A stretch of DNA of 64,000 nt from Owenia fusiformis (taxonomy: Eukaryota; Annelida; Polychaeta; Sabellida; Oweniidae): positions 27,101,936 to 27,165,935 of the forward strand of contig CAIIXF020000006.1 in NCBI GenBank assembly GCA_903813345.2, read 5' to 3'. The translations under genes were made by a program, and so were the position numbers. Positions 3,424 to 62,899 of this stretch are shown piece after piece. The notes below the pieces were generated by a model. That model did not search any database, was not told the origin of the DNA, and was given only the letters and a program-made list of their open reading frames with translations. Every line of letters begins with the position of its first letter. Positions within the stretch are counted from its first letter, which is position 1.

Positions 3424-6308
3424 AAGCCGGCTTTCAAAGCCGGCTTTTAAAGCCGGCTTCTACAGTACATCAGAAGCCGGCTTCTGGCGTCACCAAGAAG
3501 CCGGCTTTTAAAAACCGGCTTCGAATGACTTACAGAAGCCGGCTTCTGCAGTTACCAAGAAGCCAGTTTTAAAAGCCAGATTCTCTCTCTCAATCATTTT
3601 GTTGTGCATTATGCATCTTATTCTCGTATAATTAGCATGGAAATGAGAAAAAATGAAAATAAGTAAAATTGTAACATATTGCAAGATTTTTTGCAAAAAG
3701 TAATTTTAACCAAACCTATGGGGGAAATTTAATTCTAAGTAAAAATATCGATGAATTAAATCATGTTCGTTAAATAAGAGTAGATTATGCAATTGCATTT
3801 CTGTTTGATAAAAACGCATCGCTCATTTTACAAAACTGGCTCCAACTTGGAGCCAGTTTGCAAATCAGCTCGCTCCATCTTACACAAGCTATGTAGGGGC
3901 AACCTAGCAACTGGGAATCACGGGATACTGTTTCATGATAATTGTCATGTGCATTATGCATCTTATTCTCGTATAATTTGCATGAAAATGAGAAAAAACT
4001 GAAAAATACGTAAAATTGTAACTTATTTCAAGATTTTTTGGAAAAAGTCATTTCAAGCCAAAACTATGACAGTAAATTGAATTCTAAGCACAGATATCGA
4101 TGAATAAGATCACATTCATTAAATCAGAATAGATTATGCAATTTGCATTTCCGTTTAATAAAAACGCACCGCTCACTTTTCAAAACTGGCTCCAACTTGG
4201 AGCCAGTTTGCAAATCAGCTCGCCCCATATGACAAATGCTATGTAGGTACAATCTGGTAGCTGAGAATCACGAAATACTATCTCACGATTATTTTTATGT
4301 GCATTATGCATGTTATTCTCGTATAATTTGCATGAAAATGAGAAAAAAAACTGAAAAATACATAAAATTGCAATATGTTTAAAGATGTTTTGCAAAAAGT
4401 CATTTCAAGCCAAAACTATGAGAGAAAAATCAATTCTAAGTAAAAAATATCGATGAAGTAGATAATGTTCACCAAATCAGAACAGATTATGCATTGCATT
4501 TCCGTTTAATAAAAACGCATCGCTCATTTTACAAAACTGGCTCCAACTTTAATTTAAAAATTTTTTATTTCTAAGTAAAAATATCGATGAATTAGATCAC
4601 GTTCACTAAATCAGAACAGATTATGCATTGCATTTCCGTTAAATAAAAACGCACCGCTCATTTTTCAAAACTGGCTCCAACTTGGAGCCAGTTTACAAAT
4701 CAGCTCGCTCCATCTTACACAAGCTATGTAGGGGCAATCTAGCAACTGGGAATCACGGGATACTGTCTCACGATTATATTTATGTGAAACGTTGCTAGAT
4801 TGTCCCTACATAGCTTGTGTAAGATGGAGCGAGCTGATTTGTAAACTGGCTCCAAGTTGGAGCCAGTTTTGAAAAATGAGCGGTGCGTTTTTATAAAACG
4901 GAAATGCAATGCATAATCTGTTCTGATTTAGTGAACATGATCTAATTCATCGATGTTTTTACTTAGACTTCAATTTTCTCTCATAGTTTTGTCTTGAAAT
5001 GACTTTTTGCAAAAAATCTTGAGTTATGTTATAATTTTACATATTTTTCAGTTTTCCTTATTTTCATGCATATACGAGAATAAGATGCATAATCCACATC
5101 AAAATTATCGGGAGACAGTATCTCGTGATTCCCCGTGGCTAGATTGTCCGTTAATAGCTTGTGTTTAATGGTGCGAGCTGATTTGAAAACTGGCTCCAAG
5201 TTTTGAAAAATGAGCGGTGCGTTTTTATTAAACAGAAATACAATGCATAATATTTTTGGAATTGATGAACGTGATCAAATTCATCGATATCCATGCTTAG
5301 AATTCAATTTACCCGTATAGTTTTGCAAAAATATGACAATATAAACTATATTCAAAAGCCATCTTCTGCAGTACGTCAGTAACCCTACTATCACACCAAA
5401 CTAGTTCTCACTACGTTCTCGAAAACGGGCTTCAACTGTGTACGAACGGACTGGACCTACTAAGAACCGTTTGGGATCTATTTACAAACTTCATCGAACG
5501 TACTCGAACGGGTAGGTCCTCTAGAACTCAGACAATGCTCACAATGTTCTCGTGGTCGTCACGTTCTACAATTAGAACGAGTGAAAACGTACTAACGACG
5601 AGCTGGACGTACTACGAACGAAACCGTCGTACTTCAATCCTACTAGGGACGTTTTAACAACGAGTTGAACTGTCTGAGGACGTGTTTAGAACGAGGTAGA
5701 ACTAATTGCAAACGGGTTTAAACTGATTAAGAACGTATTTAACACTGTTTATGAACGAGTTAGCAAAAATATAGCTATCACACCAAACAAGTTGCCACTG
5801 CGTTCTCCAAAACTGGTTTTAAACTGTGTGCGAACGGAATGAACGTAGCTGCAACTTTCTAAGGTCTATTTACGAACTTTATGAACGTTCTTAGACGGGA
5901 ATCGATTCAAAATTCGATGGCGACCATGCCGTTCTGTAATCAGGTCATTGACTAGACTAAGACTGTTTAAGAACGAAGAAGCTAATTATTTCAGACATAT
6001 TCCCGACTACAGCCAGATTGAGCCCGTTTTACGACGTTTTCGTAGGACTTGCAAGAATGGGTAAGAACTAGTTTGGTGTGATATGGGGGGTTAGTAAGAA
6101 GCCAGTTTTAAAAGCCGGCTTCTTGTTGACTGTAGAAGCCGGCTTCTGTAGTACGTAAGAAGCCAGTTTGTAAAAGCCGGCTTCTTGGTGACTCCAGAAG
6201 CCGGCTTCTGTTGTCCTTCAGAAGCCGGCTTTTAAAAGCCGGCTTCTTGGTGACTCCATAAGCCGGCTTCTGTAGTACGTAAGAAGCCAGTTTGTAAAAG
6301 CGGTTTTT
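3424..6308. mobile_element. Foldback element of ~2.9 kb with AGAAGCCGGCTTCT arms
   Basis: Clusters of the self-complementary motif AGAAGCCGGCTTCT lie at 3424-3580 and, in inverted order, 6098-6308. Between them is a ~350 bp unit containing the hairpin AACTGGCTCCAACTTGGAGC. It occurs in direct order at 3833, 4183 and (truncated) 4533, again at 4667, and then inverted at 4843 and 5187. The point of symmetry is near 4775. Layered inverted arms built of tandem subrepeats are the hallmark of foldback (FB-like) elements. No transposase frame is visible, so it is non-autonomous. The right arm is interrupted by another element at 5380-6093. Confidence 0.75.
5380..6093. mobile_element. Nested inverted-repeat element with GAACG-rich interior
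   Basis: The ends match as inverted repeats reading TAACCC, then a few variable bases, then TATCACACCAAACTAGTTCT. The right end is the complement at about 6063-6093. A third copy of the terminus, in the left-end orientation, occurs internally near 5776 (TATCACACCAAACAAGTTGC). The interior is saturated with GAACG/CGTTC-type words. It splits a GCAGTACGTCAG...AAGCCAG phrase of the surrounding foldback array that is continuous in sister units, so it inserted after the foldback element formed. No coding potential seen. Confidence 0.75.
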
Positions 6309-6309
6309 G

Positions 6310-8902
6310 CCTTCGAGTACTTCTGGCCAATTCGGACGAGGTGGAACGTTATAATAAGCACGGAAAATAAGTATCTCCGTTAGAGGCCGACCTGGAAGTT
6401 GACATGTCCGATACTGTATTCAATCAAGGTGTATGTGATACAGATGATGTAACACCTCAGCGGATTCTCCAGAGTCTGACCTTCCAAGACCTTTTTTAAG
6501 TATACAAGATAAGAAAACTAGAACCCCGTGCTGCTGTTAACCGCTATATCGCATCGCTCTACACCACATCCTGTGCAAAGCAAATACTCCAAGGAAATTG
6601 AAAGATATCAAACGTTACCAAACTATGAAACACATACGATACCATCTCAATGTTGTTATTTTTACAAGTTATATCTGAGTTTGTATCCTGTGGAACACAT
6701 TGGGTGGGATTTTAGGCTATTCTATGAGAAGGGAAATTCATAAAAAGGCACATCATGATCATCGATCCACGATAGTTATTTTAAGAATTAGATGTTAACA
6801 TATTGTTTCAAAACTCACGCTTGATCGGGAATTTTGGTGAAAATCATACTAACTAGTATACAAAATTAGAAACATTGTATATTACCTTTACGGAGGTGAT
6901 ATTCGATGTTTCTATATCACCTCCTGAACAATATCAAATCTCGATATGTACATCAGATATACAGAGTGTCCATAAAAGTCGCTAAACAATTATGTGTCCA
7001 TTTAGTCCGTGTAACGTGTGAAGAGACCCTGTGGACCTACTTCTTTTTGCTTCATTGGATATAGTTTTCGAGGTCATGTCAGATGTCAAACTGACCTGAT
7101 TGCGAAATTGTTACACTGAATTATTCGACTAAGATCTAGGTCTAAATTAGGTCGACTCATCACTTAGAAAACTGTCTAGGATATCTCCCTAGCGTCGTGT
7201 TAGGCAATCATCGTAAACCTTCATCGTCATAACAACATGTATAGCACGGGGCGCAGTGATTCAATATTCAAATATCCCTGAAAACATACACTTATTTTTC
7301 CCATAAATATGCCATGGTTATTTTTCTGTTGAAAATTAAAAGCTTGTGGAATATCGATCAGCAATGGATGGAATAAACAGATCTAAAGCCAAATAGGTTT
7401 TTCATTTCATTCCGAACATATGATACCAAGAACAAAAGAAGTGTCTGATGTGTTAAAACAATATAGAGAAAAGGGTATACATATTTTTCAAATAATAGTG
7501 TTACCCTTCAAAAGATGACCATTAAATTGACGATGTGTAAAACTTTCAGAATCTTTTGATGACTGATTTATGAGAATCGTGTGTTCAAAAAGTTCACCAT
7601 ATCGATACCCATCCTTTCTTCCATTTCATTCAAAAAGAGAAAGGGAAAAATGCCAAAAGTGGATCCTTACAAAATAGACTTACCATTTCTTCAACACTCG
7701 TGGCCACAATCAGGAAAGTATTGGAAAAGAATTTCAAGAAGAGTGAGGATGAGAGGGGTTTGAGATAAGAAATAGTATAATCGTATTGCACAATCATTAG
7801 TTTCAAACTTTATTGTTGACGGTGTTAGGCGTTCGGCGGTCAGTGTTCGGCGTTCGGCGTCCAACAAATGGCAGAGGGTGAAGGTGTTTTGACAGTTATT
7901 GATAAAACAGCCTTATTATTAGTGGTTTGGTAAACATAAACAAGGCAAGAAAATGTAATTCCAAATTGACAGATATACTAAGACCTCCGTTGCATTTGCT
8001 CTACGGAGGCCTAACGGCGGACGTAGCTTCACAAAATCGATATAGAAAATTTACATTATATTTTATGCTGCCAATTTCTCTCTTTTTGGGGAGCTACGTC
8101 CGTCCTACGATTGCCATAGTTCAAAGTTGACTGAGGCATGAAGCTAGCGGACGGTTACACGTTTAAAGTGATCATCTGTGGCACTGCCATGCTCCATATG
8201 CGATGTGATGCGCATCTGATTTGGTGTGTCTTCTTCCTAAATATCGATCCAGGTGCATTTTGCATTTTCATTAAGAAAGACCGGTTGGTATGAAAATTAT
8301 CAACGATGATCTTTTCCAGGTGTACTGGAATACTCATTCAAAAGGAAAGGCATTCCCTCTTTGGCTACCTTAACCTGTTGAGAACTGATCATAGAAGACC
8401 TTGGAAATCGATACATGATTAATCCACCAGTACATCCTGTGTACATATATCTATTTGAAGGTCATGGATATTATTCCTGACAGTTCTGGAATTTAGAGCT
8501 ATGTCAAATGCGTTAACAAGTGATCATTTTAAAAAAATGAAGGCTCGTGTGAAGGAGATGTTGCAGTGTTGTAATGAATTGTATTAATAAATAGGGATAT
8601 GAAAATATAACACAAGATAAAAATAAAAAAGATGCAAAACTTGATTATGAATATGTGAACTACATAATTTATTAATTATATTATAAAAAGAAGTACAAAA
8701 ACTAATAATGAGTTGAAATTCTCACTGGCCATCATTATATTTTGAAGCTGGCTATATTAAGAACGACATATGAAGTAATTAAAATATATAAAAACTACCA
8801 TCATTAATGAACTAATTACAATATATAATAAAAGTACCATCATCATAACATTTTGAAGTTGATAATATCAATTACATAACATATGAAGTAACTATAATAT
8901 AT
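6310..8902. other. No gene recognised
   Basis: Only short unconvincing open frames. There is a perfect 11 bp stem at 6892-6902 and 6914-6924 (GGAGGTGATAT). A GGCGTTCGGCGGTCAG-type minirepeat lies around 7828-7862; a related inverted phrase recurs near 26650-26683. From 8600 on the sequence becomes very AT-rich and repeats phrases of the following tandem duplication. Confidence 0.5.
7976..8110. repeat. Short dispersed repeat with internal palindrome
   Basis: The perfect inverted pair CGGACGTAGCT / AGCTACGTCCG sits inside a ~130 bp stretch. It resembles the sequence at 49345-49505: both contain GCATTTGCTCTA, then a GGCGG-type run, then ACAAAATC, then CTTTTT before the complementary end. It is probably a small MITE family; the outer limits are not sharply defined. 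Confidence 0.5.
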
Positions 8903-10010
8903 GAGAAATTGCAAAAATAATATTGTTCATGCATATAAAAATAAATGAATTTATGAAATCTGTGAGTATAATATTATATAACATATAACTACAACTTCCA
9001 CTAACTACAATATATAAAAACTACAAAATGAAATATTGTTGAAGCATATAAAAATAAATGAAATTATGATTGTATAATACTGTAATTTGTAATACTTTGT
9101 GACATTTTCTATGATTATGTAAAGAATGAGATTTATAGACTTGATTACCTTGACTAGTATAATTACACCTTTGACTAATCTATGGACAGTACAGCACAAT
9201 ATGTGTAAGTGTCCTACTTGGGTGTTCTATTTACATTAGTTCCTCTGATAATGTAAATGCAACTGCAATTGAGGAGAATATAAGTGGTTTTGAGAGAATT
9301 TCTTTTAGAAAAGGTAAATACTATGTTACTAGGATACATTATTTGTGGCGATAAACTATTTAGAAATCAACTGCAATACAGTATATTGAGAAACATGTAT
9401 AATAGAGAACTTGCTTTGTAGGATTTTGTGCATTCCCTCACAATCTTGCGGTAATTTGAGAAATTACAAAAATAATATTGTTCATGCTTATAAAAATAAA
9501 TGAATTTATGAAATCTGTGAGTATAATATTATATAACATATGTACTAACTACAATATATAAAAACTACAAAATGAAATATTGTTGAAGCATATAAAAATA
9601 AATGAAGTTATGAAGTTTATGATTGTAAATACTGTAATTTGTAATACTTTGTGACATTTTCTATGATTATGTAAAGAATGAGATTTATAGACTTGATTAC
9701 CTCGACTAGTATAATTACACCTTTGACTAATCTATGGACAGTACAGCACAATATATGTAAGTGTCCTACTTAGGTGTTCTATTTACATTAGTTCCTCTGA
9801 TAATGTAAATGCAACTGCAATTGAGGAGAATATAAGTGGTTTTGAGAGAATCTTCTTTTAGAAAAGGTAAATACTACGTTACTAGGATACATTATTTGTG
9901 GCGATAAACTATTTAGAAATCAACTGCAATACAGTATATTGAGAAACATGTATAATAGAGAACTTGCTTTGTAGGATTTTGTGCATTCCCTCACAATCTT
10001 GTGGTAATTT
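8903..10010. repeat. Tandem duplication of a ~555 bp AT-rich unit
   Basis: Copy one runs from about 8903 to 9457 and copy two from 9458 to 10010. They agree almost base for base over long stretches, including GGACAGTACAGCACAATAT and CTTGCTTTGTAGGATTTTGT. Single-base changes and small indels separate them. The pair lies just beyond the 3' end of the Helitron-type RPA gene and may be part of that element's 3' region or its flank. Confidence 0.9.
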
Positions 10011-10368
10011 GTATTGCGAGGATTTTTTGTTATGCTACTTTTGTAAATAATAACACTGGTCTCATACTCCAAATTAAGAAGAGGACACAGCTTTATTGTC
10101 TGTTACACAACAAATCCCTTCATAGAGAAATGTATTTTCTTGACATAAATTTTTTTTTTTTTTTCTAAATACTGTAATCAATTTAACCTTACAAATAGCA
10201 GGTGAAATTACTTATTTTAAATCATAACTGAGTCACAGGATTACCTGTGAAGCTGTAGTAACTACTAGTTATCAGGAAGCAAAACGGCAGCAATAATAAT
10301 GAAATTATAGCAAGTTTTAGCATATTTTTTTGATTGTTGTGATTGCGTTTATGAATCATAGTCACAAG

Positions 10369-12511
10369 TTATGTAAGGAGTGAAATTTTGCTGAAGAAAC
10401 CATTTGGGTGTACATCGTATGACACTTTTTGTCCAATCAGATCAAGTATCGCATCCTCAAGAGCATCTGAGGTCATAGTAGATGGTTGCATATCCTGAGA
10501 GAGTAGAAGGCTGAACATCACTTGCGTAAATACTTTTTTCTGCACATTTGATATGTTCATGTACAAATCAACAGCGTTGGCCTCATTACTTTCATTACAT
10601 TTTGGGCATTTACCATTGATGAGTTTCTTATTGTAGCATTTTGGCTGGATGCAACCACTGTAGATATTCACCGAGGAGACTGAAGTAATTGTTCCTTGGG
10701 GAAGTTTTGGTGTTTCTAATGGTTCATCTGTTGATTCGGCATCGCTCAATTCCTCATCATCAGGGAGAAACTGTAAGCATTGAAAGAATATGTGGTTGAA
10801 ATATATTCAATAACTTGTAATGTATATTAAAGTTTGGCCCTTCTGAAAGCTGTGTTTTACAAGTGAAATTTACTTAAGATAACTTGAATAAAAATGTGAA
10901 TGATTTTGGTCCCTTGGAAAACTGTTATTAGTATATGTGTATTGGTATTGGTTTGGAGTTTTTTAATTGATATTTTATAGTAGAAATTATATAGTGGAAT
11001 GTTTTTTCTTTTTTATAAACCATGGACATTACGTATGGAAAAGCGCACTTATAATAGCATATGTTAACAATACATGTAATATTAATTGATTTACATTGTC
11101 AGATTACCTTGATGTCAGTTTCATTATTGGTATTTATATATTTTGTGGAGTTGTACTCTGCTACTGTAGCTTTTGTTAATGACAGAGTGTCATTTGTTTT
11201 AAATGGTAGGTTTGCTCTTTCAGCCCATAACGATACTTTGACCTTTTGGGAACTTTTGTCTTTGATCACAATCTCTCTGAAGTCTAGAGTTTTCTGACTT
11301 GATCTGATAGTTCTTTGCGACTTTGAATGAACCTATAAATGTAAAAATATAGTGTAAAATACAGAGTATAAAATAGTAATTGTTAGAATTGGTTTGAACC
11401 ATGATAAACTGATTTTTTGAAATGTTTGGTTTAATTTATTTTGCTTTATTTTGTAGTAACAATAAAAATAGTGGCCATAGCTATCTTGGCTCACTTAGAA
11501 CAGCAGAGCGTTAGATGTTGTCCCTAGTTTAGTATGTGGAAATGTGTAGAAAGCTTCCTTTATAATAGCAACAAAAGGCACAATATTGTAGTAAAGTTAT
11601 AAAGTAGTCAATTTACTTCAGTATTGTAAATAGATATACATTATGAAGCAGTTTGTGGATATCTTTGAGAGAAGTGTGATATTTTAATATTAATATGTAA
11701 TTAAGGAAATATAAAATTGATGTTATGCTGATAACTTACCTTAACAATTTTTCCCTTAATGTCCACTCTAGATTTGACTGGGGAAGAGTGAATTTTGATG
11801 ACTGAATCGATGTTTCCTGGTAGATTTCGTGACAGAATTTGTTGTCTCATTTCAGGCGAGATGGTGAGGATTTGCTTCATGAACTGCAGGTTTGTTAGAC
11901 TGGATGCATAGATTGTGGATTTAGAGTAACCATAGTCTTGAATCCTAAAAGCAAAAGAAAGTGCGTAGTGTGAGATAGCTGGAAGAGCCTTAAGATGATA
12001 TTCTGCGTATATTTTTGTGTAGTTGTGGATTTGGTATTATGATGACTAGTAAATAATGACATATATTTTTCTATAATTTAAAACATTGAAATTCCAATAA
12101 AGCAAACATTTGAGTGAATTATGTTAACATCAAGAACATCAACTGAGTTCTTTGTGGAATTATAATGGACATTTTGAAATAAAAATTACTATTTTGAAAT
12201 CAGTTGATTGCTGCATATATAGCCTATGAACTAGTTTATTTGATATGATTATAGTGGATAACGTTATAACTGATTACTTACTTTAAACAGATTGTGTTTT
12301 GCTTCCTGTTGGCTACTTTTGCTGCATTTATAGCCTTTTCTCCAATAAACACAATTTCTTTGTAGCCTGTTTCGTCGGCAAGGTATCCAGTGGCTCTCTG
12401 GGTGTTTTTTCCCTGATTGGAAGTGTGCTGTCTGGTCTCTTCAAGCTTTATGACGTGTCCCATGAGAAACGTTGTACTCAATGTGCTGTCATCTTGTATT
12501 TCATTTAACTT
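10369..12511 (-). CDS. RPA70-like single-strand-DNA-binding protein, four recognised exons, 5' end missing
   Basis: Exons on the minus strand: 12282-12511, 11740-11944, 11108-11332 and 10369-10770. Every junction has AG/GT sites and matching phase (ends in phase 2, 0, 0), giving 353 residues without a stop. Exon 1 has an OB-fold-like stretch (ATGYLADETGYKEIVFIGEK). Exon 3 resembles the second RPA70 OB fold (REIVIKDKSSQKVKVSLWAE, then a strand with AEYNSTKYI). Exon 4 carries a zinc ribbon spaced C-x4-C-x9-C-x2-C, as in the C-terminal RPA70 DNA-binding domain. The open frame upstream of exon 1 meets a stop before any ATG, so a further 5' exon is needed or translation begins at the internal ATG of LMGHVIKL. 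RPA-like genes are known passengers of Helitron/Helentron transposons, and this one follows the Rep-helicase frame on the same strand by about 490 bp. It probably coats single-stranded DNA during transposition. Confidence 0.8.
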
Positions 12512-13002
12512 CTGAATAATAGTTAAATTTGATTAATTATTTAGAATTTGTTTCCAATATAATTTTATAGTTTATGCATGAATTTAAGAATTATGCTTGT
12601 TAATGATTGATTGATCTGTGGCATAAATTAGAAATAATAAATACTAAATTAAATGAATATTAAAAGTACTTAACATTGATTGATTATTGACTGTTACTAA
12701 CATTTATTTGTTATAGTGAATTGTATAATTCAGGAAGTAGTTAAGGTTCAATGGATATGCATAAATTTAGGAATAACTGATTTAATCATGAATGATTCAA
12801 ATAAGGGCGTAATAGTCAATATTTTTTTATTTGTTAGATAAGAATTGCACAGATAACATGACTGAGTTGTATTACAATCACAGTTGTTTACTGACATGCA
12901 ATAATATGAGAACTAGTATTGTTAAGTTGTATGAATGATTCAAAGGATAAAATGTTCGATTGTAATAATGGTATAATGTTAATTATTAAGGTCTTCATTT
13001 GA

Positions 13003-16000
13003 TCATGTGATTAGACTGGCATAAAATGACATGACTTTTGTTGCTGAATATATTCGATTTGGATTGAATTCCAATAATGCTAGTCCTTCTAAGGAAGTTA
13101 CTCTACTTAGTGCCACATAGGCTTGTCCAGCTTGAAATAAGGTATTACCCAGTGAAATAACTGCCTTTTGTAGACTTATCCCTTGTACTTTATGGACTGT
13201 ACAAGCCCAACATGGTGTCAATGGAAACTGAATTCTATTAACATAACGTCCTCTGTAGAGATATTCCTGCATATACCTTGTAATTGGAATAGCATCATTA
13301 TAATGTTTATTCTTTAGACTTTTTCCTATTGTAGTGTCATCGAATTTTACATATATTTCATGTACTTTATTTTCACTTGTATAAGTTATATGGGTTACAG
13401 TTCCCATTGCTCCATTTACTAGTCCTTCTCGTGTTAATAAATTTCTCAGTAACATGACACGTGTTCCTTTAGTAACCTCTAGATATCTTGGTAAGCCACC
13501 TGCTTCTTTATTACACTCTGGTATGAAAGTCATAGGTACATCATGTCCTGGTTGAAAATCATACTGAGAAAAAATGTGATCGGATTCAATTTTAATTGTA
13601 TCTGGGTTCAATAAATTCTGCTTGTCCTTATTGTAACTTTCTACTTCATCATTTGTAGGATATATTCGCAGTGCATCTTCAAATGCTGTCATATTTACAT
13701 TATGTGTCATCCTTGATAAAAGAAGTGTTGTTGATTCTTCAGACATGTAGCCTAGGCGAATTTCATTTAATATTTTAGTATATCTAGGATCTCCTGATTG
13801 ACGAACATTAGTTTTTAATACATGTGAGTTGAAGCATGACCATAATAATTCATTTTCAAAGGCATATAGTCCACGAACTGGTCTTAATTGGTAAAAGTCA
13901 CCAACTAGAATGATATTGTAACCTCCAAAAGGCTCCTGTTTGTTTGAAATGGCAGTGAGCCTCTCATGTATGAAACCAAGCGACTTGCAGCTAACCATAC
14001 TGATTTCATCTATAATAATAGTATGAATATGCTTGAATCGCATTTGTGTATCTTTTAGTACCGTTGGTGTGAGTGGGTACATGACTGGTTCATAAGTACG
14101 TTGGATTGGCAATTTAAAAACACTGTGTAAAGTATAACCTTTTACATTTCTAGCTGCTATGCCAGTGGGTGCAGTAACTATAACGGGATCTGTATTGTAT
14201 ATATTGTAAGTGCATAATCTAAGCCACTGAACAATTAACCTTAATAAGTATGATTTTCCTACTCCAGCTCCTCCTGTTATGAATAATCTGAGAGGCTGTT
14301 TTGTGGAACATGTACTCTGGTAATGGTGTTTAACATTTTGAAACAATTTTTTTTGATCTTCAGTCAATTTAGCTATATTGTTTAATATTTCCTCGTAGGT
14401 AATGTTTGATACTGTCAAATGATGTAGTTCAGCATCCACAGCTGCAAAGTCAGTGGTGTTGACATTTGAAACAGTTTGATTTGATTGTTGCAGATTTGGT
14501 TTATTATGTATAAGTGAAGTGTTTATGGCTGTATAATTGTCATTTAGTAAATCATTAGTTTCAAATGTCAAATTGTTAGTGTTAGGACACACATTATCAG
14601 ATAACTGTTCATGAGTTAAGCGAACTCGCAGTATTGCAGATTCCAACTCTGCAGCAAATTGTGTATTTTGAATAGATAGTGTCTTGAAAGATGTCTGATG
14701 AGCCTGAAATGCATGTGGAATGGTTGGAAAGTCTTTGAATAATGCTGTTTCATTCCGATGGGGACAATGTAACAAAATACAAGAGTAATAATAATCATCT
14801 GAATTTAATGCACTGTTAGTTGTTCTTATGACAACATGGTGGCGTCTTCTTCTGATAAACTTTCCTTGATGAGGGAGAAGCAGTTGAAATGTTGGTTGGT
14901 GTCTATTATTTGCATATTTTTTTTTTGGTGGTGGGCATATGATGTACCAAGAAGCAAACTCATGAAATGACATATTTTCTAATTCACTAGGACGTGAATG
15001 ATAATAATCTAAAATATTAGGCTCATACAATTCTGTACTATCGCTAGGTAATTCATCAATCATTTTTTTGGGTTTTAGCATTTTAACTCGTTTGCTCGGC
15101 ATCATAGTATTTACATATAATACTGATCTTGAATTGTACACTAAAGGAAACCCACATATTCTGTAAATTGCTTCTTGAGCACTGAGTCTTCTGTGTTTTA
15201 GTATTGTACAGCCTAATTTAATAAGTTGTTGTCTACGTGGTTTTTCTCTGTAGGAATCATTAGAAAATAAAGTACTAAGAATACTCTTTAGTTCATCAGG
15301 TTCTACCTTACATAAATAAGAACAGACATAATAGGCAGCACCATTTGCATTACCAATAACTTGTATATCTATATTTGCACGCCAATGTTTAAGGAGAAAA
15401 GCATTATAAGGATTTATGTTCTCCTCACCTGCTTTTCTCTTTGTAAGGTAGAATTTACCTTTGTTTGTGTGAATCATTTCTGCATTTCTAATCAAAACAG
15501 TTTGAGGAGTTAATTTTTGGGGAAAACTAAATCTACATCTACCACGACGTTGACATGTAAATGTATGTTTATGTGTCTGAAACGTTTTAACTAAACTATG
15601 CAGTTCAGTATTTGGCTCAGGAAGAGTTGTTTGAATATGCTTATCAATAAATTTAGTGACAATTTCACTTGTATTTGTTTCAAAATTTGGGCAATCTGCT
15701 AGCCATAAAAACAAATGCATGTGAGGACTTCCACGATTTTGGAACTCAATTCTTCCAAAATGATCTAAAATATTACCAAATGGACAATGAGGACCTTTAA
15801 GAAGGTTGAGTAATGATTCCCATCTATTCTTGAAAGCCATTGCAGCCATGAATGGATTGTCCTTAACATGTGTAGATCCGTTAATCTTCAAATATTGTTT
15901 CAACTCTGGCCAATTATCATTTGCAGATAATGTTATGAATAATGTTGGGGGTCCCAGACTTTTAAGTGATGCTAGTAAATTTGATAAAGTATTTTTCCAA

Positions 16001-18507
16001 TATGCAACTGTTCCTCTGATTTGTTTCATGAACATATATGAATTTTGTTTTGATACTTCTGAGTTCAAACGGATGTCACCAGCAGTAATAGACTCATAAT
16101 AAGTTGATGTATTTGATGACAATGTAGGTTTTTTGAGACGCATGTAAGTTGTGACACTTGACAGTAAACGTGTCCATTCATAGTTATTTACACTCTGTAT
16201 AATATATGGTATATTTGTACGCCAGCGTGAATCTTTATGATAAAACCTGTAATGATAATATTGCAAAAGTTTCACATTAAGATCTTTGTATCTATCAAAG
16301 CCACCATATCCAAGTGGAAACAACCATGGAAATGCTTTTTCTTCACCATACGGGATGTCCATAATAGTGACTGGTTTTACGCTGACCAAGGGTAAAAACA
16401 ATCCTTCAGTGTTGGTGGAGTTAGTTGTATAGTTCATAAGCACTGAACCACTTTCTTCGTATTCATCTAATGAAATGTTGCTTGACATGATTTGTCTCGT
16501 GTTGTTAATAAAAGAGGTGTTATATTCAGCATAAAGATGGTTATGTTTCACTAACCACTTAAAGGCTGACATAACATATTCATATCTAGCTGGTATAATC
16601 TTTTCAGTGTCATTACATTGTTGAAGAGTCACTGGAATTATTCCAAGATCATGTGGTGTTTTGACAATTTTGTTGATGTTATCTTGGATTTTATCATTTG
16701 GAAAATGAATGGCCAAACCATGCTGTGCTAACTGATTACCGGGCAATACAATCAAAGTCACAAACATTTCAACCAGGGCTATCAACCTTTTTTCAATGAT
16801 CTTAAGAGAACTTAGTTCTTTTGGAACAGCAGATACTAAAGATTCATCATTGTAAAAAACTGGTAATTTTCCTTTCTCCAAAGAATCATGACACATTTTA
16901 CAATATGTGAACAAACTTTCAGTAGGTTTCACATCAAATGTATCAGTTATATTGTACTCACTATGAAGAATTGTCTTTTGAAACAGTAGTCTCTTACATG
17001 AATGACATGAAACATTTGGTATAGATGTAACAGAATTCACATATGACTGTATACAATCTGAATCATGATATCTGAAAGAGGATACTTTTGTCAATTCATG
17101 ATGATCTGCAACATTCTCTATGTTGGATGATGCAATGGAGTCATTTATATGTGCTGTTGTCTTTCTTTGTGTATTGATGACTGTCAAATGTGTCTGTGTT
17201 TTCCTTATTGAAGCATTTTTTGTTGTATTATCGGTCATATTTTCCTGATTGTCTGCAGTTGATGGCAATGGCTTTGTGAATATCAAGTTAGTAGACTTGA
17301 TATTGCTTTTGTTTTGATGTTTACTGAGTTTAGTATATGTATGGTTCTCATGAAGTACTGGTTTCCTTTTGACTGGTTTCCTTTTAACAGGTTTATTGTT
17401 GCTACTTTGTTTTGGTTGGGTGGCCAGTGTATGTGTGGATGTAGGTGACATACTGTTAATCTGACGTGAATATGTATGTTTCTCATGTGGTGTACTAGCT
17501 TTGGTTTTAGCAATTTTTTGTATTTTCCTGGTATCAGTTCCATTTTTGTTCATTACTAAGCCTTGTTCTTTTTTACCAGTTTGTTTCGAGTGACTTGTTG
17601 GCATGTGTGTGGATGTTTGTGAAGGATGGCTGATCGAACTTGAATATGTGTGGCTCTCGTGATGTACTCCATTAGGTACCTTTTTTGGTTCATCATATTT
17701 AAATACCTCACTTGAACAGTTGTTAGTATAGCTGCGTGGATGACTGTTGCTAATACTGTTTAGTAGTGAACTTCGTGCTTTACTGCCATTTTTTTTTTGG
17801 TGAGTGATCAGTGTAGATGTGGATGCTTGTGACATATTGCTGATCTGACTTCCTGATGAATCATGCACAGAAACAGGTGACAAATTATACGCTTGATTCC
17901 CATACAAATACAAAAGATGGCGTACTACATCAACAACATCATCAAATAGCATTACTACTGCTGTACCATTTTCATCCTGAAATCCTTGGCTATCTCTGGA
18001 ATGAGAATCTACCACATAAAGCTGGTTACCATGAGCAATAATAGCTATGCAAGAGCCACCTATAGTCAAAATAGCCGCTCTTGATAATTCCATACTTTGA
18101 TGAAGACTTTCAACTAAGGGCATTGAATTTGTTTGAATGTCAGTTTCTGTTTGTGTCAAAATCCCAAAAAATGTGTCAGTTAACAATTGAATATTGATAC
18201 TTTCTATGTGTCCATGAAGACTAGGCATTTGTAGAGAAGAAAAATGAGTGGGAATATCACTATGCTGCAAGTATACAGATTGGTTGTTGAACTGAGACTG
18301 CACTATATGTGCATATTCAATAGTACCAAGATGCATGATGTGATCCAAATCGGAAGAAGACCATGATGAAATGGGTAAGTGATGACTAACTAGGATAGCC
18401 AACACCGCAATCATAACACACTGAGAGCCTGCATATGGACCAAAACGGTAAAAATCTCCCTGGTGGGTTGAACCTCGTACTCTTACCTTACGGCCTGCTC
18501 CATCCAT
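13003..18507 (-). CDS. Helitron Rep-helicase with N-terminal papain-like cysteine protease
   Basis: One uninterrupted frame of 1,834 residues from ATG at 18505-18507; the frame is open to 18624 but only a GTG starts there. In order: a cysteine-protease-like domain with GSQC (Cys30) and VVDSHSRDSQG (Asp167, His169), the layout of OTU/C76-type deubiquitinases. Then a Ser/Thr-rich linker (about 215-480) with three or four imperfect repeats around HExHTYS and a basic KPVKRKPVKRKP run. Next a four-cysteine region (C501, C504, C536, C539) like the DUF6570 found in Helitron proteins. The Helitron-like N domain and HUH nuclease follow, with HMH at 929-931 and the two-tyrosine motif YVCSY at 1060-1064. 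Last is a PIF1-like SF1 helicase with Walker A GGAGVGKS (1411-1418), Walker B IIIDEISMV, VGDFYQLRPV, and a C-terminal VHKVQGISLQ...YVALSRV block. All catalytic residues looked for are present. Expected role: nick, unwind and rolling-circle transfer of the element; the protease role is unknown. Confidence 0.93.
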   Translation of the reverse strand: MDGAGRKVRVRGSTHQGDFYRFGPYAGSQCVMIAVLAILVSHHLPISSWSSSDLDHIMHLGTIEYAHIVQSQFNNQSVYLQHSDIPTHFSSLQMPSLHGHIESINIQLLTDTFFGILTQTETDIQTNSMPLVESLHQSMELSRAAILTIGGSCIAIIAHGNQLYVVDSHSRDSQGFQDENGTAVVMLFDDVVDVVRHLLYLYGNQAYNLSPVSVHDSSGSQISNMSQASTSTLITHQKKNGSKARSSLLNSISNSHPRSYTNNCSSEVFKYDEPKKVPNGVHHESHTYSSSISHPSQTSTHMPTSHSKQTGKKEQGLVMNKNGTDTRKIQKIAKTKASTPHEKHTYSRQINSMSPTSTHTLATQPKQSSNNKPVKRKPVKRKPVLHENHTYTKLSKHQNKSNIKSTNLIFTKPLPSTADNQENMTDNTTKNASIRKTQTHLTVINTQRKTTAHINDSIASSNIENVADHHELTKVSSFRYHDSDCIQSYVNSVTSIPNVSCHSCKRLLFQKTILHSEYNITDTFDVKPTESLFTYCKMCHDSLEKGKLPVFYNDESLVSAVPKELSSLKIIEKRLIALVEMFVTLIVLPGNQLAQHGLAIHFPNDKIQDNINKIVKTPHDLGIIPVTLQQCNDTEKIIPARYEYVMSAFKWLVKHNHLYAEYNTSFINNTRQIMSSNISLDEYEESGSVLMNYTTNSTNTEGLFLPLVSVKPVTIMDIPYGEEKAFPWLFPLGYGGFDRYKDLNVKLLQYYHYRFYHKDSRWRTNIPYIIQSVNNYEWTRLLSSVTTYMRLKKPTLSSNTSTYYESITAGDIRLNSEVSKQNSYMFMKQIRGTVAYWKNTLSNLLASLKSLGPPTLFITLSANDNWPELKQYLKINGSTHVKDNPFMAAMAFKNRWESLLNLLKGPHCPFGNILDHFGRIEFQNRGSPHMHLFLWLADCPNFETNTSEIVTKFIDKHIQTTLPEPNTELHSLVKTFQTHKHTFTCQRRGRCRFSFPQKLTPQTVLIRNAEMIHTNKGKFYLTKRKAGEENINPYNAFLLKHWRANIDIQVIGNANGAAYYVCSYLCKVEPDELKSILSTLFSNDSYREKPRRQQLIKLGCTILKHRRLSAQEAIYRICGFPLVYNSRSVLYVNTMMPSKRVKMLKPKKMIDELPSDSTELYEPNILDYYHSRPSELENMSFHEFASWYIICPPPKKKYANNRHQPTFQLLLPHQGKFIRRRRHHVVIRTTNSALNSDDYYYSCILLHCPHRNETALFKDFPTIPHAFQAHQTSFKTLSIQNTQFAAELESAILRVRLTHEQLSDNVCPNTNNLTFETNDLLNDNYTAINTSLIHNKPNLQQSNQTVSNVNTTDFAAVDAELHHLTVSNITYEEILNNIAKLTEDQKKLFQNVKHHYQSTCSTKQPLRLFITGGAGVGKSYLLRLIVQWLRLCTYNIYNTDPVIVTAPTGIAARNVKGYTLHSVFKLPIQRTYEPVMYPLTPTVLKDTQMRFKHIHTIIIDEISMVSCKSLGFIHERLTAISNKQEPFGGYNIILVGDFYQLRPVRGLYAFENELLWSCFNSHVLKTNVRQSGDPRYTKILNEIRLGYMSEESTTLLLSRMTHNVNMTAFEDALRIYPTNDEVESYNKDKQNLLNPDTIKIESDHIFSQYDFQPGHDVPMTFIPECNKEAGGLPRYLEVTKGTRVMLLRNLLTREGLVNGAMGTVTHITYTSENKVHEIYVKFDDTTIGKSLKNKHYNDAIPITRYMQEYLYRGRYVNRIQFPLTPCWACTVHKVQGISLQKAVISLGNTLFQAGQAYVALSRVTSLEGLALLEFNPNRIYSATKVMSFYASLIT

Positions 18508-21500
18508 GTTGTTTTTGTTCACTAATCCAGCAGTTCGATCCGTTCGAATATTAGTAGATCTATTCAATATGGCGACCTGGTATAAATTAACTGCCAATGT
18601 AAGTGTCCGATGAAAATAGTTCACTTACTAATTGCCAAGTCGTAATAATATTATTCTGTAATTGAAGATGTGAATCATGAAATATGTTTTAACAATAATT
18701 AGCCAAGTTGGTAATAAATATTTCGACGTGCTAAGTTGCCAATGATTGTCGCATCTATTAATGCCTGTGCACAAGCCAGTAATATCACTCCGCGTCTGGA
18801 TTTCAGGCTTACTATCGCAGTAAAACCTGTATCAGAGAACAATTTCTGTGTAAACAGAAATGTAAAGACAGGCATGTGTAGACGGGTGTTCCTGACACAG
18901 ACTGAAAAATTGAAATTTTATGCATATTTTGAAAGATGTTCTATAACTTGTAAAGCAGGTGTTCCTTACAGAAGAGTGTTTTCTAAGTCAAGTTTCACTG
19001 TATAAGTAAATTGCTGAACTTACTTTTAACGCGGTTGTAATTTACCGAACGGCAAAAGTAGAAAAAGTCCTAACATTTTGAACTGATTAAGATCTTTAAA
19101 TTGTGAAGGTCTGAGTACCTGGACCTCTTAGAAAACATCCAAACATATCAAAAAGTGAAGATGGGTTAATTTTGTTCTCGTTCCCCGAAGATATTAATAA
19201 AATAGTTAAATGTTCGGAGTTTTTTTAATGCTGTAAATTGTTCACAATTCTAAATCAAGAAGTCGCTCGCATTTCTGTCGTATTAAGTAAATCATGTTGC
19301 CGAAAATCAGTGCGCAGAATTCATGGTGTTGTTGTAAAATGTGCGTATGGTCGTTTGAAACCCTCTCTAACGCAATTTTATTATAAACTAACACCTTGGG
19401 GTTAAACTTTTGCTCGAGGAATTAACTCATTTTCATCAACAAATATTTACTCATCAGGTTTTCTACTAGTAAACTAACGTTTAAACCTCAGTCCATTGTC
19501 GTTATCACTTACTACTATATCCAAGTGAGATATGGCTCTTGCCTCAGCACGAGCCAATAAGACATGTCTATATAAATGAGTAAAGTAGCAACAGCGTTCA
19601 GTGGCGGGTGAATCAGGGTATCGCTCCTAAACAGGTGGGCGTCAAGAGTTTGTATTTTGGGTTCTAAAAACGTTCAAAGAATGGTTCGGTTTTAGAATTG
19701 TTTTTTTGTTGGTACAGCGAGCATGGCTATGCTTTTCATTAAAATCCACTTGATCTTGAAACACGATGCCAATACTTGTGAAGGTAATATAATCAGTGAA
19801 ACAATATGCCATGCCATGTCTATTTCTTAAAGTTGGACAGTTGATGTTAAGGTTATTTTGGCCACTATTTTAGGATCATATTAATGGACATCCCTTTGTT
19901 TCAATTGTATATTTTAATTTCAAGTATGATGAAACTACTTTTTTAAACCGCAGATTTAAATAGTTTTGAACTAATTAAATGTAGATGTATAAGTTATTTT
20001 AGAAGTAACGTCAAACGAATGCAATATTGTCGGGGAAATATTGGCACGCTTTTGGAAAGATTCCTTCCAACATTTTTACTCTCTCGAGCTCCGTGCTTTC
20101 ACTTTAAATATATTAAGAACTTGTATTAATTCCTTGACAGAGATGATGCTTTCACATCCTATCGCGATCGCAACTTTGCTCTGTGTTGTTGTCACACACT
20201 GCCAAGTTTAGCGATGTCTCTAACCTCCGTTGACTTGTATGTGTCCCCAGCCACTTCAAACTGTTGACTCCCTCGAAATCCAGCATACAAATATTGTTTT
20301 ACATGGCCGATCTAGACTTGACATACATAGCCTGGACAATGTTTTTGTAGGTCTATTCAAATTAACAATAAAATTTTGTAAACGTGATCCCGTGTTATAT
20401 ACACAAAATATTAGCCTAACCTTATGGATAATATGCCTTACGCAAATAATCGTCTTTCACAACATCTTGGCAAGGTTTGCAATTCACACTATATTAATTT
20501 GATTTAACGTACATGTACATTTAACTAAATTCAAAGGAAAGTAACATAGGATATACATATATTTTAAAAATTTGAGGAAATTTATCAGAATCGGACTGAT
20601 GTCCTAATAAGGTAAGGCCTCAATAATACTTACTGTATTAACATACTTTTTTTAAAATCGAACATGTTGAAATTGTGATTGTGTGTATGAACTGTAAATG
20701 CTACCTCTGGTTTGTTTAAGCATAAACAAGTTGTTCCATTTTGTCAGATTGGCTGATGCAACTTATCCCCAACTTTACCATAAGGTAGTGAGTTCGAGAC
20801 GCACACGAGCTCCTTGCTTTTATTAATTTACATAATTTTACGTTTAATTTATCTCGTCACGCACATGTACATGACGCATCTTAAACGTGACACCATGGTT
20901 ACGCTCAGTTTCGTTGGACTAGCCAACGTTACCGTTGGATTATGGAGCGTGTCAGGTTGTGCCTATAAAGAGCGCACGGATCATTATGAGATGTCACATT
21001 CTGTCAATGTGATGGTTTATAAGTAGTCTTTCTAAAAGTAGAATTGAAGATAGCGACAACTGCCCGCGAACGGAGTATCTTTTGCAGAACTCCTAGTTTT
21101 AGATACGGGTCGGTAAATACAATTTCAAAAGTCATAAACAATATTTTTAATAACAATTTCCAACTTAATGCTTTAAAGTTGTACCAATAATTAGTTCACT
21201 CTTCTTTCTGGTTTTAAAAACTGCTGGTACTTGTTTGCATGATGCAACCCATTAATAATCAGATTAAATCCATAAGATACAGTCCACGTGCAAATTCAAC
21301 AATGTCGATGTTTGAAGATCACGGATTTGGCCATAGTCCATGTACCATGTACGTCAATGACACAGCACAGCAGGATTCCGTCTAAATTTATGACACCTAC
21401 GTCAATGAACAGTTTTTCACCTTGATGGAAATAGTTTGATTTTGAAATAATCAATAACCATGACCTTGTCACAAGGTCACGTTTCTTGCTAAAATCATGA

Positions 21501-21558: not shown

Positions 21559-22063
21559 CACACTGGAATAGCCTGAGAACGGTAAAGTCAGATACCGTTG
21601 TCACAAATGGCGGACATAATCGTCGATTCAATTAGATTTTATGTATATTTAACAGAGCACCTAGACCAATTTCCTTTGGAACAACAATCAATCAAAGTGT
21701 CTTAATACTCGTTGTACAGTTAATAATGTTCTACCATCGAAATAAAGTCTTTAATTCAACCGATCAAAATAAGAAACGGGACAACGGACACTGTAATTAT
21801 ACCATATGCCGTTGTCTTTCTAAATTACTCAAATTCAGATTCCGTTGTCATTGACGATATCGATCGAAGACGGTAAATTCACGACCCAATTTGATCGAAA
21901 TTGGGATTTCATATGAATCACAAGAGCTTAATACATGCACAGAATTAATGACGATAAATCCCATGAAATGAGGACCAAGTAATTAAACAGTTGAAGCGAC
22001 GGTTATGTCCGCCATTTCTGACAGCGGTATCTGACTTTACCGTTGTCAGGCTATTCCGGTGTG
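21559..22063. mobile_element. ~505 bp MITE with ~70 bp inverted ends (copy 1)
   Basis: The left end CACACTGGAATAGCCTGA continues through an ACGGTAAAGTCAGATACCGT palindrome to ACAAATGGCGGACATAA. The right end is the near-perfect complement (TTATGTCCGCCATTT ... GGCTATTCCGGTGTG). The tetramer CTAG lies on both sides (21554-21557 with one extra A, and 22064-22067). No coding. A truncated relative lies at 52283-52639. Confidence 0.85.
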
Positions 22064-32663: not shown

Positions 32664-35600
32664 ATGTGTGTTCCAGGCAGGATGAGAAAAGATTTGCGGT
32701 TAATCATGGCGAAGTTTGAGAATCAGACGAACGCCGGATCTACACAACCAACAACCACAAAAACAACAACAACGTCTGCACAAAAAGATGTGACATCATC
32801 ACAACTCGATGTCAACACAACACAAACATTGACGATGACAACAATGTCCATAGAATCATCACAACAAAAAGTGATGACGTCCAAACAAGAAATGCAAACG
32901 TCATTAAATAAAGTGGTGACATCAGTGCGTGGGGACTCTGGATATGGTGGCTTCAGTGACACTGATAGAAGTGAGGGAGAAACAAGTAGACCAAGTAGTG
33001 GTATATGTGAGAGCCCCTCGGAAAATCTAGACATTCATTTTACAAGTGCATTAACCTTAAATCTTAATCCTAACAAATCAATACGTGATAATACCCCAAA
33101 TCTCAAAAGTTGTGATGAAGATGAATCGGAGATTACAAACAATGATACTCCGCTCACTCCTGAGCCAAATGTAACAATAACCCCTGCGGAAGACACCGAT
33201 ACTGCGCGAAACGAGGATGGACATGTATTTGTCAACACAACTGAACGATCGGTGGCTGAGGAAAGGGGGAAATTGGATATTGCAGAAGGTGGTGTCTCAA
33301 AAGTGCCAAGGACAAGTATACACGATGAAAATGGGATTATAAGAATAGATGAAACAGATTACGGGGATGGTAAGTGAATAAACAAGTACGAAAAGTTCAC
33401 CTGGATTATGTCTTCAAGCCAGAAACATGATGATGGGATTAATTAATTATCAGTAATAGCCTATACTTATCAGTTTCCAATAATATCAACTCAAATGCCC
33501 TGAAATGCGTGGAAGACGATAGTGTTTGTAAACCACATATGCTGGCCTGATGGTTTGAGTTTGTTATGGCAAGCATTGCTCATATTGAATACAATGTAAA
33601 GCTACTTGCAGAAAATGCAGAGTCATTTCGGGCCATTGTGTATTTTTGTGTATTAACACAATTCTCTAGCAAACAATTCCTATTGAATATCTATTTTAGT
33701 GAGTTTCTGTTTATTTTTCAACTTAAAAGTCTGCAATATTTTAAGTCCATGAAATCATCAGTTCTATAGGACCTATCGAGTCACGATTGGGCTCAGAACG
33801 TGACAATTTACTACAAAACAGAGAAAAACCGCAACTATGGCAACATACCATTTGAACGGGTGAAATAAACCATGATCACACAATACCATGTAAATATGTT
33901 GACATGTATGTTTCAGATGGTGAACTTTCAATAGAACACAAACAAGTCAAACTAAAAAAGAAGAAACGAGTCACAACAGAATTTGAAATGTTGGAATTCC
34001 TTGGAAGGTGAGTGGAAAATCAAAGTACATACTGTATATATGTACACCCGTTGTAAATAAACTACCAAGCTGCTAAGCCTGCTAACTCCATATTCTCCTC
34101 TTTAAAATTTTCGTTTTTTAAATATTCCAGATTCTTTCGTAATAACCAATATGAAATTGTATCTTTAAGTTAACAATCAATTGTTAATGTATATTGTCAA
34201 TGTCGCTTCGATGCCTAGGGTCACGTATGTTAATGACGCCAAAACAAAACGACTTGTTCATTGGCCTGTATATCTTTACCTTTAGGATATCAATGTCAGG
34301 TATATGTAGTGAATATGTCATTCATGCACTGTGTCCCGATGGGAGAACCTGATGAGCATTTTCCCCTCATCTAATTTTCGTCATTTTAGGGGGAAATTCG
34401 GGGAAGTCACGAAATGCTTAGAGAAGTCAACAGGGAAGGTTTTCGCTGCGAAATGCGTCTACGCACCGACAGAGCAAATGGTTAAAGAAGTGGCGAACGA
34501 GATTGATATAATGAACTCCCTACATCATGCTAGGCTTCTGCAGTTACATGATGCATTCCAGCACAAGGACGAAATAAATCTAGTCTTAGAATGGTTCGTA
34601 TACAAATTAATGTATGTTGACCTCCTGAACAAAGCTAAAGCAATATAAATTATAATTTAGAAATCCATAGCCAAGGGGGGGGTTCACTTTTCAGAAAAAT
34701 TCCAGGGGATCACTTTAACAAATCTGGCCCACAATCTTACGAAAAATACTCACATTCGTGACAAACTGCATGCTTTTGGAAAAAATGGCCATGGGGGGGG
34801 ACGAAACGACCCTCGAATAGAAAAGAAATCGTCGAAGTTTTGGAATGATAAATTGCATTGCGCAATCAGCGTGTTTTGAGATACTAAATGGCGCAGGAAT
34901 TTATTTCATTCATTCAAGCAATAGACAATCGCTCCGTTCGCAGTATACCATCATCTCTCCGTACGTCAGGCGTGGGTTTGTTTTATTTGTAAGAATGGGC
35001 TGCCAACAATAAAAACACCTGATCTCTGGTGAACGTGGCATCATGACCTACTTGTCCATTTTTCTTTGAAGAGGAATGTTGCACAGTATCCTATTGCTTC
35101 CACACATCTATCAGTAAACTATTTCTACATCGTGATCCCAGTGAGAGGTACATGAATTAGTACAAGCTGGGATTCTTCATTCTTAATTCGTGCACTGTTT
35201 CTATCTGCATCAAGAAATACTCTATTGGAATAATTCCATATATAGCCACAAACATGCTAAGGAAATTAAACGTTAAATATGCTATTTAAATTAAACTACT
35301 ATATGGGTCATTTCATCATCATTTCAATATGGTTGTCATCGTCATGTATACTGTATAGCTATTGTATATAAAGGTAGAAATCTCCCAGATAAAAACTCCA
35401 GATATTTTGACCTACTTAATCCTAATCTACATGAAGCCTAATGCCACTTATTGTTCCTTCATTTTTGCAGTATCTTGGGTGGTGAACTGTTTGATAGAGT
35501 TCTCCGAGATGACTTTATCCTAACAGAGCGGGCGTGTATGTTGTTTATGCGGCAGATATGTGAGGGGGTCGAGTATATGCATTCACAAGACATTCTACAT

Positions 35601-49831: not shown

Positions 49832-51979
49832 TTAGGAGGGACATCCCATGACATCGAACCTCATTGATATATGGCCAGACCATGTTTGAGGATAAATGCG
49901 CACAAATCTAGCAAAGACAGCAGGCTCAATCGTGTTTGTCACTTGGGTGTTCCTGTCCACATTTCCCGGGAGAACCTAGAAATAAATAATTTACTAATAA
50001 AATTATGCTTTCGAATTTGACAAAATACGAATAGTGATCTAATTAGTGTATTTTTCATCAATGAAAAGCGACTACAAATATTACTTTTCAAGTACTTTCG
50101 TGGCTTTGGTTATAATAAGTTTACAATGTCAGCTGCATCCCAATATTTTAAGTCCTAAGTTGATTTCAAAACAACTTTATTACAATGCTCAGAAAATATT
50201 TCCTTCCAACTTCATCACAGTCTGCCTTCTGCCTTATGTGTACAACGTAATGGATAGGGGGAAGGGGGGAGGTTCAGATGACTACCCCCCCCCTGGCGTT
50301 TCAAAAGTTGAAGAGGTACAGAAAAAAAGTAAGGTACCATATTGTAGGTCATTCAAAATCCTCGAGAGGGGTGTATTAAAATCTCAAAAAATGAGGTCAA
50401 ACGGGGTCAAAAGTAGGTCAAAGTGACATAGGGGTGAGCTTGTATTTTTTACTTTTTTCAGTCAAAAACAACATTTAATGTTTTCTAGCCAGATAAGGGT
50501 ACTAAATGCGATAGATGTATATAGTATCTACCATTTTAGGACAAAAGAACGTGGGTAAATACCTTTCCTAGATCCAGAGATGGGTAATTTGGTCGAAATT
50601 TTGACGAAATGAAATATCGGAAAATGGGGGGAATGGGGAGACAAATCACAGCCAAGGATCTAAGATACTAAATAGATAATATTTTTTATTTGTGCATTTT
50701 AAGAAAAATGACTTAAATAGCCGCGAAACGGGAAGATCTTTGGTAGGGGAGACAAATACTATATATCTACAAAAAAATGAAGATATGGTTATGGTTATGC
50801 AGACATCTGACAAACATGTTCAGGACCTCCCAGAAAAAATTCATGAATATATGATCACTAGTTTTTGAAAAAAACAATTCTTTTACTCAAATTATTTGGA
50901 TCGAAATGCGAGTTGCGGACCACAATGTAAAATTGAAAACTTCGTATCTCAGTCAATAAAAGTGGAAAATATTTCGAAATACTTTTGAAGCACAAATAAA
51001 AATTTAATGGTTCCCATTGAATTTGATCGTAAGAAATATATTTTGAAAAGATTTGGAACTACTTTTGAAGGACTATTAACATTGTAATGGTTACAATTCA
51101 ATGAGATTGGAAGAAATAGATTTTGAAAAGATTTGGAACGAAGGACAACTAATATTTTAATCGTTCCCATTGAATGTGATCGTAAGAAATAACTTTTGAA
51201 AGATTTGGAACTACTTTTGAAGGACTACAAACATTGCAATGGTTCACATTCAATTTGATCGTGTGAAATAAATTTCGAAAAGAGGTGGAACTACTTTTGA
51301 AGGACTACTTACGTTTTAATGATTCCCATTGAAAGAGATCGGAAGAAATAGATTTTGAAAAGATTTGGAACTACTTTTGAGGACTACAAACATTGTGGTT
51401 CCCATTCAATTTGATTGTGTGAAATAAATTTCGAAAAGAGTTGGAACTACTTTTGAAGGACTACTTACATTTTAATGATTCCCATTGAAAGAGATCGGAA
51501 GAAATCGATTTTGAAAAGATTTGGAACTACTTTTTGAGGACTACTACCTTTGTAATGTGATGAAATAATAAAATATTATTTTACTGAGTCCAGATTTTAA
51601 AGTTGTAATCAAATTGACTTTGAAAATATTTTAATTTACAGTATAGCGATTGCCATTGAATGATGTGAAGTATCAGAATTCCTCATATTCTAGCCAGATT
51701 GTAATGAAGGTGTAAGGAAATCAATTTTGAAAATATTTGGAATAAATTGGATTGAATAAAGGAAACTATGGTCGTGACTTATAATAGAAATGTTTTATTA
51801 CCATTCCATACTCTTCGAGATTGTTCTCAGTTGTACCATAGATGAGTTTGTATGATTTAACCCATTGGGGATAGTCTGCTCTTCCTTGAGTGACCACCTC
51901 CGCCACTACCATGACTTCACCAAGATCTGCTTGTATCCATTGAGCCATATTATTCGCACCTGCAGCCCATCCCCATCCC
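49832..51979 (-). pseudogene. Partial second copy of the PAN-F5/8C gene (last two exons)
   Basis: Exons 51802-51979 and 49832-49975 correspond exactly in length, phase and splice positions to exons 3 and 4 of the gene at 42213-44554, with the same TAA stop after MGCPS. Both frames are intact (QWIQADLGEVMVVAEVV; PAVFARFVRIYPQTWSG). Differences from the first copy are few and keep the fold residues. No copy of the signal-peptide/PAN exon or the first discoidin exon was found up to 55 kb. It is therefore either a truncated duplicate or the 3' part of a gene whose 5' exons are unrecognised. The intron is 1.8 kb instead of 0.46 kb, enlarged by a tandem array and G/C-run sequence. Confidence 0.7.
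50955..51560. repeat. Tandem array, ~79 bp unit, about seven copies
   Basis: TTTGGAACTACTTTTGAAGG recurs near 51053, 51210, 51287, 51364, 51443 and 51520, with a divergent unit near 51134. Units also share TTCCCATTGAA and ATCGGAAGAAAT. It lies inside the enlarged intron of the partial discoidin copy. Confidence 0.85.
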
Positions 51980-55527: not shown

Positions 55528-55530
55528 TAA

Positions 55531-58664: not shown

Positions 58665-58689
58665 TATGGATATTTTGACAACTTTCACG

Positions 58690-60450: not shown

Positions 60451-60459
60451 CCGCACCCC

Positions 60460-62894: not shown

Positions 62895-62899
62895 TTACG

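Follow-up and report, generated by a model that had tools for sequence, protein, structure and literature searches.

Coding content of the locus

The locus lies on the minus strand of a 64-kb stretch of Owenia fusiformis DNA (the whole stretch is called the window here) and consists of a long single-exon reading frame and a four-exon RPA-like gene. Its features are as follows.

13003..18507 (-): VTD-Rep-helicase ORF, 1834 aa, single exon (open frame, ATG context and Pfam domains)
17986..18471 (-): VTD (herpesvirus-tegument-like) cysteine protease (Herpes_teg_N and 8ADD matches)
16990..17985 (-): linker rich in Ser, Thr, Lys and Asn (composition and motif scan)
16522..16836 (-): DUF6570 region upstream of the Rep (PF20209, E=1.7e-10, residues 597-701)
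15307..16260 (-): HUH Rep nuclease (Helitron_like_N, PF14214, E=1.9e-30, residues 789-972, and YVCSY)
13012..14370 (-): PIF1-type helicase, to the ORF end (PF05970, E=7.1e-27, residues 1419-1624)
12282..12463 (-): RPA-like exon 1, from the first in-frame ATG (GT-AG splice model)
11740..11944 (-): RPA-like exon 2 (AG acceptor, GT donor)
11108..11332 (-): RPA-like exon 3, most of the OB fold (REPA_OB_2 over spliced residues 112-199)
10369..10770 (-): RPA-like exon 4, with a CX4C...CX2C zinc-ribbon-like pattern (Rep_fac-A_C at only 0.054)
10233..10250 (-): hairpin TCACAGGTAATCCTGTGA, a speculative 3'-end candidate (hairpin search)

The ORF listing of the window places a stop-free frame of 1873 codons at 13003-18624 on the minus strand, and the chance of so long a stop-free run from a given start is about 6e-61 at the window's base composition. 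The first ATG of the frame is located at 18507 and has an A in position -3 and a G in position +4. Residue numbers refer to the 1873-residue translation (P0001). Along P0001, Pfam finds Herpes_teg_N, DUF6570, Helitron_like_N, PIF1 and Pif1_2B in this order, and Herpes_teg_N, Helitron_like_N, PIF1 and Pif1_2B exceed their curated cut-offs; NCBIfam matches were solely far under its cut-offs. The initial annotation had proposed one uninterrupted frame, a boundary at 18507 and the fusion of a protease to a Rep-helicase in one polypeptide, and all three proposals agree with the frame, its first ATG and the Pfam domains within the single ORF.

What kind of protease occupies the N-terminal region? 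Herpes_teg_N matches residues 52-213 of the whole protein (Pfam, E=1.5e-12) and, when the protease stretch is searched alone, PF04843 reaches E=5.6e-14 with 52.6 bits against a cut-off of 25. The motif scan locates HQGD...GSQC at residues 54-69 and DSHSR at residues 206-210. The initial annotation had named OTU, C76 and other papain-like families for a profile search. Its cysteine protease is recovered with the GSQC and DSHSR residues, in the C76-like family Herpes_teg_N and not in OTU: Pfam up to E=10 on the protease stretch lists Herpes_teg_N alone, and no OTU family is listed for the whole protein at E=1. The best PDB match of the protease is 8ADD (E=4.3e-6), the DrT1-VTD2 domain from a zebrafish Helitron (PMC9741609). 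In the displayed piece of the alignment, 47 of the 162 aligned positions carry the same residue, and the catalytic Cys and Asp-Ser-His line up, with Cys69, Asp206 and His208 of P0001 aligned with the catalytic residues of 8ADD. DrT1-VTD2 requires C322, D451 and H453 for its activity, and its acidic pair D376/E377 is reported to be important for the ubiquitin tail (PMC9741609). The E377 position corresponds to Asp123 and the D376 position to Ser122 in the alignment, where the pair was placed by counting from C322, a count that reaches D451 one short. The second PDB match, a cytomegalovirus-type tegument chain (E=0.2), covers the first motif only and, taken alone, would not be evidence. Judged from its sequence, the protease is a member of the herpesvirus-tegument-like VTD family with its catalytic residues in place, and we infer that it is an active deubiquitinase. 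The predicted structure of the protease has a mean pLDDT of 43.1, which is too low for use. A search for Herpes_teg_N in 14 control genomes and a single viral record yielded zero matches and thus provides no positive control.

The linker that follows the protease contains three HE[SKN]HTY[ST] repeats (motif scan) and a 66-bp internal repeat (17400-17465 and 17784-17849) that emerged from the self-comparison of the window; positions 16900-17700 match zero Pfam families at E<=10. The Rep nuclease carries the motif IEFQNRGSPHMH at residues 959-970 and the two-tyrosine motif YVCSYLCK at residues 1099-1106. It matches Helraiser (7LCC) with E=4.2e-11, and its two tyrosines are at the Helraiser spacing. 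In the helicase, Walker A, Walker B and motif VI were all found by the motif scan, Pif1_2B matches residues 1714-1745 (Pfam, E=1.6e-6), and the alignment with the human-type PIF1 chain 6hph extends to residue 1871 of 1873. The HUH, YVCSY and helicase motifs noticed in the initial annotation are therefore all present in the motif scan and Pfam results. The polypeptide joins an HUH Y2 Rep to a PIF1-type helicase, the combination that defines the Helitron superfamily, and the earlier assignment to a Helitron-type element stands on the Helitron_like_N (1.9e-30) and PIF1 (7.1e-27) matches.

The RPA-like gene shares the strand of the Rep ORF and begins 539 bp beyond its stop, downstream as the initial annotation had placed it. 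Its four exons join via GT-AG introns into a 337-aa protein with zero internal stops, and the exons have a GC content of ~39%, versus 26-28% in the introns. REPA_OB_2 (PF16900) matches the spliced protein with E=9.7e-10 (38.7 bits versus a cut-off of 27) and the unspliced exon pieces with 4e-7. Rep_fac-A_C reaches E=0.054 on the ORF that forms most of the last exon and does not appear among the matches of the spliced protein up to E=1. Of the four-exon OB-fold/zinc-ribbon gene that had been proposed, the exons and the OB fold are thus retained, and the 0.054 match gives little support to the zinc ribbon at the C-terminus. The predicted structure of exon 4 has a mean pLDDT of 41.4, also too low for use. 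An additional 5' exon is possible, given the acceptor-like TTATTCAG directly upstream of exon 1. Among solved chains, the best match of the RPA-like protein has E=0.25, and chains named RPA are at 0.28-0.29, a divergence that would exceed what an animal host RPA1 should give. Given these weak RPA matches and the 539-bp distance on the same strand, the RPA-like gene is likely of the transposon type and part of the element rather than the host RPA1.

Clade placement and the missing AP endonuclease

Helentrons are told apart from Helitrons by an S, in place of L, in RG(S/L)PH and by a (F/Y)(w/l/y/k)R tripeptide (Thomas et al. 2014, PMC4067079). Motif 2 of the Rep reads RGSPH, with the S of the Helentron type instead of the RGLPH of canonical Helitrons (Helitron1). 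The tripeptide before motif 2 is F-G-R, in which two of the three residues fit the published key and the middle G is not w, l, y or k. The C-terminal AP endonuclease of Helentrons is not among the families that Pfam lists for the main ORF. The element is not filed as a Helentron because this hallmark is absent; judged by the motif, it looks like an endonuclease-less member of the Helentron clade.

Could the endonuclease be encoded nearby, in a downstream exon or as a decayed remnant? This option was ruled out within the 57 stop-free stretches of 45 aa or longer that start at 4.5-13 and 18.6-23.5 kb on the minus strand, since the endonuclease is absent from all 57; the scan was confined to this strand and length. 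The segments yielded the RPA pieces and otherwise only sub-cut-off matches, the best of which is DUF5836 at 0.0069.

Helraiser, the canonical Helitron of bats (7LCC), resembles the element in its HUH Rep, two tyrosines and PIF1-like helicase and differs in having RGLPH in place of RGSPH. Helraiser is not known to carry a protease. Erven et al. 2022 (PMC9741609) described VTD deubiquitinases that reside in Helitrons of vertebrates, insects, cnidarians and molluscs, and the core of the present finding was thus already published in 2022. The zebrafish DrT1 and DrT2 Helentrons likewise contain a VTD in the Helitron ORF, the Cys and Asp-x-His residues and a Rep-helicase. However, DrT1 has two VTDs and DrT2 has one active VTD and an OTU, whereas one VTD and zero OTU domains are found here; moreover, a C-terminal AP endonuclease is stated for VTD-hosting Helitrons, whereas the present element lacks it and has an RPA-like gene adjacent (PMC9741609). 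What sets the element apart from the published VTD Helitrons is therefore its missing endonuclease, along with its spliced RPA-like gene, its single VTD and the lack of an OTU.

The mite Helentron-Mo shares the Rep-helicase, a second ORF for RPA and the Helentron-type Rep motif 2, but it has an endonuclease and an intronless RPA ORF, and a protease is unmentioned in the excerpted description (PMC4067079). Proto-Helentron-Pi of Phytophthora (PMC4067079) and the Fusarium Helitron2-type FoHeli (PMC5148889) each have a Helentron-side Rep-helicase without the endonuclease; unlike the present element, their ends are known, and the excerpted descriptions do not mention a VTD. Herpesvirus large tegument deubiquitinases share the Pfam family, the aligned HQGD...QC and the Asp-x-His (PMC9741609), but the herpesvirus enzyme sits in a capsid-associated protein and not in a transposase. 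Among the open-access matches listed, no other paper reports a VTD in an endonuclease-less Helitron. The combination may nevertheless not be unique, given that cnidarian genes join VTDs to diverse other regions, among them domains associated with transposons (PMC9741609).

Relatives of the element were confirmed in none of the four viral-contig protein scans and neither of the two genome-contig scans. As a separate observation, the EFQxRGxPHxH DNA pattern occurs at 17 loci in viral contigs. Three of the 17 IMG/VR contigs (L005 at 1767-1943, L008 at 4131-4307 and L011 at 297-473) match the Rep over 62 residues with 31% identity and E of about 6e-4, and they possibly encode distant Reps of prokaryotic viruses.

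Proposed transposition mechanism and probable role of the protease

In Helitrons, two tyrosines nick and join DNA in a rolling-circle process, the helicase unwinds it, and RPA binds the strand. By analogy with these known elements, the Rep tyrosines would nick and join strands, the helicase would peel one strand away, and the RPA-like protein would coat the peeled strand. We propose that the locus is probably an autonomous-type, Helentron/Helitron2-side rolling-circle transposon without an AP endonuclease that encodes a VTD-linker-Rep-PIF1 polypeptide, in which the linker would be flexible, and carries a spliced RPA-like gene.

An ordinary Helentron that lost its endonuclease by recent truncation or deletion, and is hence a defective copy, would be the simplest route from the described members, as VTD-hosting Helitrons carry the endonuclease (PMC9741609). 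However, the ORF terminates right where the PIF1 match does, at residue 1871 of 1873, and the scanned same-strand segments nearby hold zero endonuclease remnants, which makes such a loss unlikely. A host gene domesticated from a Helitron would no longer be a mobile element; domesticated VTD genes have been described in insects and nematodes (PMC9741609), and a single copy is visible in the 64-kb window. The 5.5-kb frame has nevertheless kept all of the protease, nuclease and helicase motifs that were searched for, and the adjoining RPA-like gene follows the usual autonomous layout, so that domestication is the most improbable of these explanations.

What would the protease do in such a transposon? 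The initial annotation had offered two roles, the processing of the polypeptide itself and the removal of ubiquitin from host factors, which fared differently. Self-processing, by which the protease would free the Rep-helicase from itself, has been suggested for the OTU-like proteases of Helentrons (PMC4067079) and would suit the long linker between the protease and the Rep-helicase. It is nonetheless highly doubtful, if slightly less so than domestication, because an LxGG or RLRGG sequence is absent from the 1873-residue frame (motif search) and all three zebrafish Helitron VTDs tested cleave ubiquitin, two of them also cleaving NEDD8 (PMC9741609). The removal of ubiquitin is the better founded of the two proposals. 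In the transposon proposed here, the VTD would take ubiquitin, and perhaps NEDD8, off its own transposition protein or off host factors in the vicinity and, by extension from the assays on the zebrafish relatives, would spare those proteins from degradation. The protection of transposition proteins by ubiquitin removal is the best-supported role, and Helitron deubiquitinases have been suggested to guard proteins needed in transposition (PMC9741609). One VTD-Rep-helicase with one RPA-like partner would offer a simpler protein set for testing the deubiquitinase role.

It has also been suggested that the herpesvirus tegument enzyme probably derives from the deubiquitinases of Helitrons (PMC9741609). 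A VTD element without the endonuclease would separate the acquisitions of the deubiquitinase and the endonuclease. We tentatively consider, as a conjecture with the odds against it, that a lineage with a herpesvirus-type deubiquitinase on its Rep-helicase never had the AP endonuclease, that the deubiquitinase joined independently or earlier, and that such a lineage is a candidate source of the herpesvirus enzyme.

Extent of the element and other features of the window

The initial annotation had called the element intact, which holds for the reading frames only and does not extend to its ends, as the terminus searches found none. Helentrons and Helitron2 elements are marked by subterminal inverted repeats and one or more terminal hairpins, and canonical Helitrons by 5'-TC...CTRR-3' ends with a hairpin 10-12 nt ahead of the 3' terminus. 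Inverted-repeat and hairpin searches for element termini in the window remained at chance level. Against the candidate 3' end, the top inverted-match score is 11.0, and five shuffles score 10.5-11.5. Between the flanks, exact inverted pairs reach 13 bp at most, and 46 of 100 shuffles gave pairs at least as long. As one of 18 hairpins of its type within the window, the candidate at 10233-10250 is not significant, and no CTRR was seen by eye shortly after it. The self-comparison of the 64-kb window contains no second copy, and no empty site was found. The extent of the element and the place of the RPA-like gene inside it are therefore putative, and the recent activity that the initial annotation read from the intact copy is conjectural. 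Dispersed repeats at 7405-7617 and 21716-22063 appear to bracket the element loosely.

A direct tandem duplication (8899-9458 and 9454-10011; ~555 bp, 94% identical) is located just downstream of the RPA-like gene and may be part of the AT-rich 3' region of the element. Palindromic AAGCCGGCTT repeats cluster in both orientations at 3424-3584 and 6090-6309, on either side of 350-bp units that recur in tandem and in inverted arrangement at 3.6-5.3 kb.

Elsewhere in the window, an inverted repeat pairs 55527-56180 with 62248-62898 (~654 bp, 98.6% identical), and each of its arms opens with GTAAAGGCCCGGTCACACCG. The interval 55527-62898 resembles a 7.4-kb DNA element of young age that is bounded by long terminal inverted repeats and contains diverged repeats at 58.8-60.4 kb. 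An exon at 51769-52152 (-) encodes an F5/8 type C (discoidin) domain (E=2.5e-11). A protein kinase exon at 34313-34645 (+) (Pkinase, E=2.1e-14), which resembles myosin light chain kinase by eye, probably belongs to a host gene.
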